Shown one piece after another: positions 14,735 to 17,833 of a stretch of 39,357 bases of DNA (positions are counted from its first letter, which is position 1; each line of letters starts with the position of its first letter). The position numbers and the translations under genes are program-made. The notes beneath the pieces are model-generated. The model searched no databases and was not told where the DNA came from. It saw only the letters and a list, made by a program, of their open reading frames with translations. This DNA is from a virus. Where the stretch lies: the IMG/VR virus record IMGVR_UViG_3300042561_000996, positions 1 to 39,357 of that record; one strand, 5' to 3'.

Positions 14735-14939
14735 CGTCGACGATAGCCGAAAGGGCCTTAAGTTGATACTGATCAAACTCTTGGTTTTCTCTAAGCATCA
14801 TCGAGGTTGCAATCTCAAAAGATCTGCGGGCCATGTAGTGATCGCCCTCAAAATCTTTTCGATCACTAATCAATCCAGACAACGCCGCCTCTGCGTACCG
14901 CCTGAATTGTTCCCTGTCTTCCATTTGCTGTTTGTTCAT
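14727..14939 (-). CDS. Hypothetical protein after the helicase
   Basis: This 70-residue acidic helical protein ends AIVDDD. It starts at TAATG on the helicase stop, so it is co-translated with the helicase. A helicase partner is conceivable because of this position, but there is no motif to support it. Confidence 0.5.
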   Translation of the reverse strand: MNKQQMEDREQFRRYAEAALSGLISDRKDFEGDHYMARRSFEIATSMMLRENQEFDQYQLKALSAIVDDD

Positions 14940-16255
14940 TAAAATGCCCCATTGTAATTAGTCAACTCCGATCCAACCTTAAACTCCCGGTCCCCGGTCG
15001 AGTACACAGCACCGCGCCGCATGCTCAATTCGGTCTTGCTCATTTCGCCATCGCGAAATTTGGCTATGTAAACATCCATCTTTTCCGCCGCTCGATCCTC
15101 CCGATGTAAAAGCATTACGATATCCGAATCCTCTTCGATCGAACCAGATTCCTTTAAGTGCGATAGCGTTGGGGCCTCACCCTCTGCCGCCCTGCCGACC
15201 TGAGCCAATACAACAATCGGGATGTTAAGCTGCTTGCTCATTCTGCAAATCTCGTTGGACACGTGCGAGACTTGTAGCCGCCGGTCGCTGATTTCCCTTG
15301 GGGCCTTTATTAACTGGATGTAGTCGATAACAACCAACTTGCACCCCCTTCGGGCAATGTCAGTTCTGATTCTGGATTCAATAGCCGCAATGGTAGCCCC
15401 TGGCTTATGCCAAAACTCCATCGGGCATAAATGGTGGTCCGCTGCCACCGCAAGCATTTCGTTTAGCTGGGCATCCGTGTAGGTCGATTGGTTTATGTCG
15501 CTAGCCTTGAGGCTTGTCCCTCTGAGCATAAAACGCAATGCGAACTGCCGGAAGCTCATTTCAAGACTGACGAATAGCGTCGGCTCGTTTCGGTCCCTTG
15601 CTGGCCTCAATGCAATTTCCGCCCCTACTGCCGATTTGCCGATCGACGGCCGCGCCCCGATGGTGATGTACCCCGCTGGCAATCCACCGAATAGCGATTC
15701 ATCGAGCCTTTCAATCCCAGTCGCAAAAACCGAAGTTGTTTTAGACTGCCGGTTTTCTTCGCACTGCTCCAAGAATTCATCAAGCACCAAGCCTAGCCGC
15801 TTTTGCTCGACGCCTGCCCCGTCAATGATAGTCGACGCTGCCGACATTTCGCCAGCGAACTCGACCGGGTCGAATTCATCGCCCTCGCACTGCTTCGCTA
15901 GATCGTCAATAACGCGCCGAAGCTTTCGCCTCTGAGACGCCTTAGCGACTTGCTCGGCGTAGTACTGAACGTGGTGAGGCATCCCTTCGGCCATAAGCTC
16001 AACAAGCCTAGAAACGCCACCTACGAGGTCTAGCACCTTAATCCGGTCTAGTTCCGCTGCAATGTTCGTTGCGTTAAGCGGGACTGCTTTTTTGAGCAAA
16101 GCTTGAATCGCGAAGAACACTTGAGAAAAACCGATCGAAACAAAGTCGGTAGCTGCTACGTACTCTTGGGCGATGTAGATCGCCTCAGGCTTGACAATCA
16201 GAGCCCCGATTAGGTTTTCTTCGTCCTTGATGCATCGGGCGGTTTTTTCGGTCAT
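14939..16255 (-). CDS. Replicative DNA helicase, DnaB-like
   Basis: This 438-residue protein has the DnaB N-terminal helical domain (DEENLIGALI at 11-20) and the RecA-type motor. Walker A is GARPSIGKS (200-208), followed by SLEM (230-233), Walker B LVVIDYIQL (307-315), the H3/H4 region QVGRAAEGEAPTLSHLKESG and the arginine-finger region MRRGAVYS. It unwinds DNA at the phage fork. It overlaps the initiator-like gene by TAATG. No primase or DNA polymerase gene is recognisable, so the phage presumably uses the host replisome. Confidence 0.93.
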   Translation of the reverse strand: MTEKTARCIKDEENLIGALIVKPEAIYIAQEYVAATDFVSIGFSQVFFAIQALLKKAVPLNATNIAAELDRIKVLDLVGGVSRLVELMAEGMPHHVQYYAEQVAKASQRRKLRRVIDDLAKQCEGDEFDPVEFAGEMSAASTIIDGAGVEQKRLGLVLDEFLEQCEENRQSKTTSVFATGIERLDESLFGGLPAGYITIGARPSIGKSAVGAEIALRPARDRNEPTLFVSLEMSFRQFALRFMLRGTSLKASDINQSTYTDAQLNEMLAVAADHHLCPMEFWHKPGATIAAIESRIRTDIARRGCKLVVIDYIQLIKAPREISDRRLQVSHVSNEICRMSKQLNIPIVVLAQVGRAAEGEAPTLSHLKESGSIEEDSDIVMLLHREDRAAEKMDVYIAKFRDGEMSKTELSMRRGAVYSTGDREFKVGSELTNYNGAF

Positions 16256-17091
16256 TAGTATTTCCTCAGGTTCGCGTAGGGGTCGACCTTCGGTTTATCC
16301 GGCTTGGCCCTTGGGTCTACGTGGCTCGGCTTAATTCCCTGCCATTCGTTCGCCGTTGTGAGGTTGATACATGCCAGCAAGTGATCCCGATCGCGGTAGG
16401 CTTGATCCCAACCCCGGCAGACGTTGCCCCTGTCGCGGATTGGGTGTCCGATGTTGCGCCGCATCCGCTCCCAGGCTTCAAGAGCTTCACGCACCTCGGG
16501 ACAGTCTAGCCTCGGGGGGATGTCGAATTGGCCGATCGTCTCTTTGGGCTTGCGAGGTTCCTTTGGCAGCTTGGCTGTCTCCCCCTTGGGGGATAAAGGG
16601 GGTTTTTCTCCAATATTCTTCTCTTCTGTACTCTTCTGTTCTGTAGTCACGGTTTTGTCACGGTCTGACAGTGACAAGCCGGTGACAGAATCGTGACGCT
16701 CTTTAGCCGCTTTTGCCGCCTCTAATTCCTTCAATTCCCTTGCGTTTCGTTGGTTCATCGAGTTCTGTAGCCTAGCTTTGGCCGACTTGGAAAGCCAGTT
16801 TTCCCACTTCGGAAAAGAGATAAACGGCCTTCCGTCCTCACCTTTGCCCTCAGTCAACCAGCCTACTTTTGCCATCGCTGCGACCGCTGTCGGAAGTTTG
16901 ACGGCTCGCGACAGTGACAAAATCGTGACACCTGTCACGGTCCCATCGTGACAATTTCGTGACGCCCAAGACCAAACCTTGTGCAGGCACCCCACTACGT
17001 ACTCATCGGGTTGGTCAATTATGTCGGCCATTTCGAGTACCGCTGGATCGTCGCATAGATCCAGACGCATTGGAATCCAATCACCGGCCAT
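16255..17091 (-). CDS. Replication initiator / replisome organiser-like protein
   Basis: This 278-residue protein has an N-terminal winged-helix-like domain (residues 1-100, with WIPMRLDLCDDPAVLEMADI and CLHKVWSWAS). A charged low-complexity linker follows (about 110-195, with KELEAAKAAKERHD). A C-terminal domain ends in ANEWQGIKP, as in phage initiators and DnaD-like loaders. It lies directly before the DnaB-like helicase. Two clusters of GTGAC repeats lie inside the gene, as in lambda O, where the origin is within the initiator gene. ATG 17091 has GGAAGGG about ten bases upstream; a TTG at 17115 is an alternative. Confidence 0.75.
   Translation of the reverse strand: MAGDWIPMRLDLCDDPAVLEMADIIDQPDEYVVGCLHKVWSWASRNCHDGTVTGVTILSLSRAVKLPTAVAAMAKVGWLTEGKGEDGRPFISFPKWENWLSKSAKARLQNSMNQRNARELKELEAAKAAKERHDSVTGLSLSDRDKTVTTEQKSTEEKNIGEKPPLSPKGETAKLPKEPRKPKETIGQFDIPPRLDCPEVREALEAWERMRRNIGHPIRDRGNVCRGWDQAYRDRDHLLACINLTTANEWQGIKPSHVDPRAKPDKPKVDPYANLRKY
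16646..16697. repeat. Iteron-like cluster 1 (five GTGAC motifs)
   Basis: Within the initiator gene, GTCAC (reverse of GTGAC) occurs at 16646 and 16657, and GTGAC at 16671, 16682 and 16693. Spacings are 11, 14, 11 and 11 bases, close to one helical turn, and the orientation switches in the middle. Flanks agree with a CCGTGACAR consensus. This looks like an initiator-binding array and is a candidate replication origin. Confidence 0.7.
16914..16963. repeat. Iteron-like cluster 2 (five GTGAC motifs)
   Basis: GTGAC occurs at 16914, 16925, 16948 and 16959, with GTCAC at 16934. Spacings are 11, 9, 14 and 11 bases. Two copies read ATCGTGACA exactly. The array repeats the design of cluster 1 about 265 bases away, so the two could be looped together by a bound initiator. 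Confidence 0.7.
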
Positions 17092-17115
17092 AGCAGCTTG
17101 ACCCTTCCGTGGCAA

Positions 17116-17207
17116 AATCCCAGCCGGTATTCAGGTTGCTACCCCTGGCGCAGATGCGCCGACAGAAACCGGCTGGGATTGTTTGTGTTTTGTGTTGGGT
17201 AGCAACC
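17116..17207 (-). promoter_or_regulatory. Interlocked inverted repeats (possible pseudoknot or origin)
   Basis: Two perfect inverted repeats are interleaved. AATCCCAGCCGGT (17116-17128) pairs with ACCGGCTGGGATT (17168-17180), 13 bases. GGTTGCTACCC (17134-17144) pairs with GGGTAGCAACC (17197-17207), 11 bases. A third palindrome, GGCGCAGATGCGCC (17147-17160), sits between them. The order A-B-C-C'-A'-B' is that of an H-type pseudoknot carrying an extra hairpin. The minus-strand loop between the first two arms is free of G and T (AACACAAAACACAAAC). The element ends eight bases before the initiator gene's Shine-Dalgarno sequence. Confidence 0.8.
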
Positions 17208-17216
17208 AACGCAATC

Positions 17217-17222
17217 ATTATA
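17217..17222 (-). promoter_or_regulatory. Candidate -10 box of a replication-operon promoter
   Basis: The minus strand has a perfect TATAAT at 17222-17217. No good -35 box is found at the usual distance (ATTCCC at 17 bases). Transcription from here would start near 17210, two or three bases before the first arm of the interlocked repeats, so the structure would be at the very 5' end of the replication mRNA. The weak -35 makes this tentative. Confidence 0.4.
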
Positions 17223-17252
17223 GCCATTGTTGAATCCTTGGGAATACCTTGC

Positions 17253-17504
17253 CTACGGAAGACTAGGAGGCATCTTTTCGCTGTCCGCGCTCGACTCCCT
17301 CCACTCGGTAAGGTCGTTGTTCAGGTAGTCAAGCATATCGCCGATGGTCATGCCTTTTTCCGCTGCGTCAATCGCCATCGAAAAGCCGTGCATAAAACCC
17401 CTTCGGTAGCTGCGTTCCGATGCCTCGGCAGCATCGCCCCATTTAGGTAAATCCTTAAACGGAATTGGCTCTATCTCTTTGCTGTCTGTTTTTTCTGTGC
17501 TCAT
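17253..17504 (-). CDS. Hypothetical acidic protein
   Basis: This 83-residue protein has a central FMHGFSMAIDAAEKGMTIGDM segment and an acidic, Ser/Pro-rich end. The ATG at 17504 has GAGGG upstream; a GTG at 17528 is in frame. The leader contains a 17-base sequence that is nearly repeated before the gene at 18024. No family is recognised. It is the last gene before the replication leader. Confidence 0.55.
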   Translation of the reverse strand: MSTEKTDSKEIEPIPFKDLPKWGDAAEASERSYRRGFMHGFSMAIDAAEKGMTIGDMLDYLNNDLTEWRESSADSEKMPPSLP

Positions 17505-17518
17505 AATTTCACCCTCAG

Positions 17519-17535
17519 TTAAAACCACCGAACAA
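17519..17535. repeat. Short leader repeat, copy 1
   Basis: TTAAAACCACCGAACAA at 17519-17535 recurs with one base deleted at 18039-18054. On the coding strand it reads TTGTTCGGTGGTTTTAA and lies a few bases before the Shine-Dalgarno site in both places. It may be a shared translational leader or a small regulator's binding site. Confidence 0.55.
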
Positions 17536-17536
17536 T

Positions 17537-17833
17537 TCAGCCGCCGTGTTTTTCGAGTATTTCATTGGCCTGCGTGAAGGCCTGTTCCGCTTCGTCGATA
17601 TGCTGCCAACCTAGAAGGGGCTCCGAGCAGGTGAGCACCTTCCGCAGCACCTCCAGCATCCTTGGAGCGTCGGCCATTAGTTCGGCGTTGGCCGCGATCT
17701 CCTTGGGGTCCATGCCGAAGTTTAGGACCACACCAAGGTAGGTATCGCCCGCAAACACCATGCAAGACCCGCGTGGTTCTTCGCATGGACCTATTACGCC
17801 CCACGGCCCCGGAGTGAATTTTGATTCTGCCAT
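17537..17833 (-). CDS. Phage protein of the FTPGPW...ADAPRMLEVL type
   Basis: This 98-residue protein starts with KFTPGPWGVIG and ends its core with ANAELMADAPRMLEVLRKV. That arrangement (HTPGPW near the N-terminus and ANARLIAAAPDLLEAL-like at the C-terminus) is frequent in phage early regions of many hosts, with no assigned function. The ATG at 17833 has AAAGG nine bases upstream. Confidence 0.75.
   Translation of the reverse strand: MAESKFTPGPWGVIGPCEEPRGSCMVFAGDTYLGVVLNFGMDPKEIAANAELMADAPRMLEVLRKVLTCSEPLLGWQHIDEAEQAFTQANEILEKHGG

Follow-up and report, generated by a model that had tools for sequence, protein, structure and literature searches.

A conserved leader RNA of two interlocked stems heads phage replication operons and may act as a transcription attenuator

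To our knowledge, the timing of replication-gene expression is understood in detail for only a few phage systems, mostly lambda-like ones. The locus described here raises the question of what two interlocked inverted repeats do immediately in front of a replication initiator gene. The window analysed, 39,357 nt long, is a complete virus record, and the element lies on its minus strand. A preliminary description had reported a 13-base and an 11-base perfect repeat, interleaved within 17116–17207, and both were recovered exactly, at 17116–17128/17168–17180 (13 nt, 100%) and 17134–17144/17197–17207 (11 nt, 100%). The whole window contains no other perfect inverted repeats of at least 10 nt within 120 nt, and a relaxed scan of it for interlocked stems returned this one site. 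When Markov-shuffled windows were searched, interlocked pairs of 9/9 or longer appeared at 5 per 100, which places the 13/11 pair far beyond chance.

Read 5′ to 3′ on the minus strand, the locus begins with a putative −35-like hexamer, TTCCCA (17239–17244), which is a weak match and is separated by 16 nt from the −10 box TATAAT (17217–17222) that had been pointed out earlier. The promoter predicts a transcription start at the G at 17210, 7 nt after the −10 box, and GTT separates the −10 box region from arm A of the first stem, P1 (GGTTGCTACCC, 17197–17207). Arm A is followed by the unstructured, A/C-rich, 16-nt spacer L1 (AACACAAAACACAAAC, 17181–17196), by arm B of the second stem, P2 (AATCCCAGCCGGT, 17168–17180), and by the 23-nt stretch L2. 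The third palindrome of the preliminary description lies in L2 and is the P3 hairpin GGCGC-ATCT-GCGCC (17147–17160), indicated by both sequence and folding. Arm A′ of P1 (GGGTAGCAACC, 17134–17144), L3 (TGAAT, 17129–17133) and arm B′ of P2 (ACCGGCTGGGATT, 17116–17128) complete the element. A U-run, TTTT (17114–17117), stands directly past the G-rich end of P2′. As had been stated, P2′ ends (17116) 8 bases before the start (17108) of a Shine-Dalgarno-like sequence, GGAAGGG (17102–17108), which presumably serves the replication initiator gene (16255–17091; PHROG 2509 by PHROG match). The natural start of this gene is the ATG at 17091 (MAGDWIPM..., kept in relatives) and not the TTG of the longest open reading frame. 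A DnaB-like replicative helicase, recognized by homology, follows at 14939–16255.

Relatives were collected from viral metagenome contigs using the initiator, a stem fragment, the helicase, other initiators and the L077 helicase as queries. These are contigs of uncultured phages. Their elements form about seven classes by arm sequence (the window with L002, L007 and L054; L056/L052; L006+L018/L019/L023; L010/L036; L062/L065; L163/L166; and L077), beyond which a stand-alone look-alike exists (L151/L155). The layout is common to the classes: −10 box, arm A, A/C-rich spacer, arm B, hairpin, A′, 2–5 nt, B′ and T-run. The −10 box is TAWAAT or TAGAAT in all classes, and its distance to arm A is fixed at 8–13 nt, so that the structure starts within a few nucleotides of +1. 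In the replication-operon classes P1 has 10–14 bp, with one bulge in L010 and L036, P2 has 13–17 bp, L1 has 13–17 nt, L2 has 19–23 nt and L3 has 2–5 nt (TGAAT, TT, TTT, CGT, TA, GT or AA). Over the relatives as a whole L1 measures 10–17 nt, and a hairpin occupies the place of P3 in every replication-operon class.

The letters of the arms are almost completely different between classes, while the pairing is kept. Since MAFFT misaligns such divergent arms, pairs were counted in Python on hand-anchored arms, over an 11-bp core in nine sequences. Cognate arms gave 99% paired cells for P1 and 100% for P2. When the 3′ arms were swapped between sequences, the means fell to 62% and 60%, and the observed pairing was reached in none of 2000 swaps. 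Double changes were seen in 10 of the 11 columns of P1 and in all 11 of P2; from the window to L056, for example, a C-G pair becomes G-C in P1 and three adjacent double changes occur in P2, and from L062 to L163 an A-U pair of P2 becomes G-C. It had been suggested that the element is a pseudoknotted 5′ leader whose relatives should carry compensatory changes, and such changes were indeed found for both stem pairs, together with the conserved spacing between the −10 box and arm A.

Within the 11-bp cores, wobbles read on the coding strand were G.U in 12 cases and A.C in one, which points to the minus-strand RNA as the selected molecule. This strand test is mildly biased by a scanner that accepted G.U and not A.C, but several members came from homology and not from the scanner. 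Where both strands of a locus gave a score, that of the coding strand was the higher. A scan for a −10 box, interlocked stems and a T-run recovers these members, and it gave no match when all loci were shuffled and rescanned, about 2 Mb over both strands. The single new match to a gapped DNA pattern (−10, ACACAA, GGRATTTT), L040, was rejected as it had no P1; L092 and GC-rich matches within coding regions were dismissed as chance.

Taken on comparative grounds, a conserved RNA structure of two interlocked stems, P1 (A:A′) and P2 (B:B′), with P3, is well supported: two crossing stems each carry compensatory double changes, and arms exchanged between sequences do not pair comparably. Simple geometry indicates that P1 and P2 could form together in one molecule, L1 being long enough for a complete coaxial P1–P2 pseudoknot in every class, though tight in L065 and L151. 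A concern that the TGAAT loop was too short for a full pseudoknot falls away, as L2 is long and spares L3 the crossing of a groove, and an L3 of 2 nt suffices in relatives.

No known RNA family corresponds to this structure in the searches made. Rfam 15 gave no match over the whole window at the gathering score, and at a relaxed threshold it gave only a chance miRNA match (E 3.3). A DNA similarity search of 50,697 named phages found no match for the leader or for the L151 type. The initiator and the terminase have only distant relatives among named phages, so no named phage or host is tied to the element; profile searches of genome contigs with the DnaB and initiator alignments found no relative, and hence no prophage and no host. 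A literature search found no paper on such a leader. We regard the element as a real, previously uncatalogued RNA and have filed it as a new RNA family that appears to work like an attenuator. Because its arms change freely while the pairing is kept, an element of this kind escapes sequence searches and has no entry in Rfam, and more such leaders may exist.

What, then, might the leader do? Folding of the 5′ end predicts a further hairpin, P0, which in the window is GTTGG-TTGCTAC-CCAAC (17194–17210). P0 spans +1 to about +19 and takes up arm A, so that it is mutually exclusive with P1. Among folds of the 5′ end, P0 has the lowest energy in 14 of 14 members, in nearly all of which it starts at +1, and the lowest-energy predicted fold of all replication-operon members, the window included, is the nested P0+P2+P3. 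Between L018 and L019 two letters of arm A change; the change is compensating in P0 and is tolerated in P1 as wobble. Taken individually, P0 is weak against shuffles (fractions 0.01–0.62), and its outer GUC/GAC letters are common to classes by descent.

The second feature bearing on function is the U-run. In every class the G-rich foot of P2′ runs into TTTT to TTTTTT, giving a GC-rich stem and then a U-run of 4–6 T between the promoter and the first gene. In the window the U-run is short (4 nt, nT 3.1), which is weak for an intrinsic terminator, and P2 with its U-run is not called there by a simple terminator scan, the loop being too long for that scan. The earlier proposal of a two-state switch between mutually exclusive hairpins can be retained in part only. 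The arms of P1 and P2 do not overlap and the two stems need not exclude each other, so that P1 could exclude P2 only through topology or kinetics; P0, however, does compete with P1, and the U-run follows P2 in all classes.

We therefore favor, from the U-run after P2′ in every class, the structure near +1 and the sequestering of arm A by P0, a reading in which the element would be a promoter-proximal, pseudoknotted attenuator of transcription that adopts two conformers: a terminator form, P0+P2, and a pseudoknot form, P1 alone or together with P2. We put its probability at about one half, and the attenuation step itself stands at similarly even odds. The leader RNA of the replication operon, about 95 nt long, would start at 17210, and P2 with the U-run would be its intrinsic terminator. 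P0, made of the first nucleotides and arm A, would hold A off A′ and leave P2 free to terminate. Pairing of A with A′ would instead enclose arm B in a closed loop, so that P2 would form late or as a pseudoknot, and RNA polymerase would read through into the initiator and helicase genes. Candidates for setting the balance are the speed of the polymerase, an antiterminator, and an RNA-binding protein of phage or host. The expected outcome would be a timed or metered expression of initiator and helicase, and the leader probably controls when the phage starts to copy its DNA.

In its action the leader would resemble known switches. The HMP-PP/thiS riboswitch (PMC6478431) and the fluoride riboswitch (PMC11077080) are switches with terminator-embedded pseudoknots. 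Like them, the present leader has alternative pairing or a pseudoknot, a strong stem followed by a U-run, and possibly ON and OFF folds that exclude each other, as comparative data suggest. It differs from them in the separate arms of P1 and P2, in having no conserved ligand-binding core and no ligand suggested, and in the genes it precedes, which are phage replication genes. A putative terminator placed at once after a promoter and before a phage operon, as a timing device, also recalls pR′-tR′ and tR1 of lambda. The lambda sites need Q or N, and we know of no pseudoknot in them.

A somewhat unlikely alternative is that P1, P2 and P3 form a constitutive pseudoknot acting after transcription, either by shielding the 5′ end from decay or at ribosome loading on the initiator Shine-Dalgarno sequence, possibly as a protein operator, with the T-run as an unstructured standby site. 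It would suit a structure whose first nucleotide falls between +1 and +6 and which stops 8 nt short of the Shine-Dalgarno sequence, and an L1 that permits the complete coaxial pseudoknot in every class. There is a plasmid precedent: in IncIα/IncB, a leader pseudoknot upstream of the ribosome-binding site of the initiator gene repZ controls its translation (PMC8383071). The two leaders share a pseudoknot upstream of an initiator gene as the point of control. The repZ leader, however, acts on translation with a counter-transcribed RNA, and the arms here form stems of 10–17 bp and not loop–loop contacts. For such an antisense RNA, a simple consensus scan of 16900–17600 found no promoter-like site on the opposite strand. 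A pseudoknot of this kind would, moreover, leave unexplained the T-run of at least 4 nt after P2′ in every class and the G-rich foot of P2, and the distance from element to start codon varies (about 20 to 60 nt), which is unlike a tight translational operator.

We consider it unlikely that the element is mainly a small-RNA gene, with a promoter, a stable pseudoknotted RNA of about 95–105 nt and its own terminator, the initiator being expressed by leakage or from elsewhere. RydC is a precedent for a pseudoknotted small RNA (PMC8383071), and the look-alike in L151, L168, L172 and L177 stands alone, the differing genes downstream of it appearing to have −10 boxes of their own; it is identical from promoter to T-run where the neighbouring gene differs by about 10–15%. 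A stand-alone transcript with a 3′ terminator, as in RydC, is suggested for the L151 type but not for the replication leaders. The latter stand 17–60 nt ahead of a start codon, no second promoter intervenes, the element tracks the start of the operon even where the first gene changes (L077), and its freely changing arms would ill suit a conserved antisense seed.

Still less can be said for a put-like RNA, in which the nascent leader would bind RNA polymerase and make it resistant to downstream terminators; this we hold to be very improbable. As in HK022 putL, the phage RNA element comes immediately after an early promoter and opens with a 5′-terminal hairpin from the first nucleotides, with a second structure following within 70–100 nt. 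The put RNAs, in contrast, are conserved in sequence, consist of two stem-loops with no pseudoknot described, act on RNA polymerase and have no terminator of their own (PMC9378689). The second structure here runs into a U-run, the stems are interlocked and the arms are nearly unrelated in sequence, so HK022 put RNA was rejected as a model. HDV-like ribozymes have the same strand order, A-B-C-C′-A′-B′, with a nested P3 and crossing P1 and P2, but these need a P1 of 7 bp at the site of cleavage and, ahead of P2′, a conserved catalytic C, whereas here P1 has 10–14 bp and L3 lacks a common C; such a ribozyme is disfavoured, as is chance.

The suggestion that the element is part of the origin as DNA, a cruciform or protein site merely resembling RNA, is disfavoured and of very low probability. 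Although it lies beside the initiator gene, near iterons at 16645–16964, and 17109–17119 resembles an iteron half, the G.U wobbles fall on one strand and the element keeps a fixed distance from the −10 box. Protein sites would be conserved in sequence, which the arms are not. The place is also kept in front of initiators whose N-terminal domains are unrelated, and the iterons belong to the initiator gene and not to the element.

The genomic setting was compared among the relatives. In most cases a replication initiator follows closely behind the leader, which is present in single copy in the longer records examined (G001, G002, where it is the L038/L071 element, G007 and the window); G004, G008 and the part of G010 that was scanned lack it. 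Four N-terminal types of initiator occur behind it, namely MAGDWIP (PHROG 2509), MPRARNIKPSFF (PHROG 16167), FWFFTGDWLKDPE (PHROG 678/13246) and DUF1376. In L077 the leader heads the operon before a different first gene, and the initiator lies 2.5 kb downstream. The leader thus appears as a module of the operon transcript that is not tied to any single initiator. In L079, L077 and L065 a terminator-like hairpin closely precedes the promoter, which marks the operon as its own transcription unit. Similar initiators without the element were found in L011–L017, L024–L030 and L058–L064, so the element is not obligatory.

If the attenuator reading holds, replication operons would begin with a compact RNA cassette that does not depend on its sequence, a novel means of metering an initiator, and the element would let one ask cleanly, in a natural system, whether an intrinsic terminator can be gated by a pseudoknot whose arms are separate. 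A more specific idea, which we put forward tentatively and with the odds against it, is that this is a new class of RNA switch in phages, where two long stems that do not overlap make up a pseudoknot gating a terminator by topology, P0 letting P2 terminate and A:A′ enclosing arm B so that the polymerase passes. The cassette of promoter, pseudoknot and terminator would then be a mobile module, exchanged among replication operons whose initiators are unrelated and possibly also passed to late operons (L151 type).

The look-alike of the L151 type was found at L151:1190–1340 (minus strand), L168:1748–1885, L172:321–460 and L177:676–815, where a promoter, interlocked stems and a T-run stand upstream of late genes. 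Its stems are of 12 and 12 bp, and P2 can be extended by 9 bp. The elements of L168, L172 and L177 are identical from promoter to T-run, where the identity stops, and their flanks differ. A phage small RNA or a late-operon leader is possible for this type, and its homology to the replication leaders is uncertain.

Several observations concern the initiator genes. Those at L018/L037:3905–4801, L163:2697–3584, L052:2161–2994 and window 16255–17091 have unrelated N-terminal domains and shared C-terminal segments (e.g. NVCRGWD...HLLACI), and a common DnaB helicase accompanies all four. As judged from these proteins, this is a case of initiator domain shuffling behind one leader. A recurrent terminator, GGGTCGCTCG...GGGCGGGCGGCTCTTTT, was seen at L011:2700–2775, L052:1950–2010 and L079:2765–2784; it closely precedes either the initiator or the promoter of the leader, and occurs also in relatives without the pseudoknot.

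It may be noted that iteron-like repeats, GTGACA(N)4TCGTGACR, occur at 16645–16964, inside the initiator gene, as three exact and two imperfect copies in two clusters, an arrangement that resembles the origin inside gene O of lambda. At 17109–17119, the T-run and the bases next to it read GTGGCAAAATC on the plus strand, and 10 of these 11 positions agree with half of an iteron. The matching stretch of L002 is GTGACAAAAT, and the likeness to an iteron half was not seen in the other classes.
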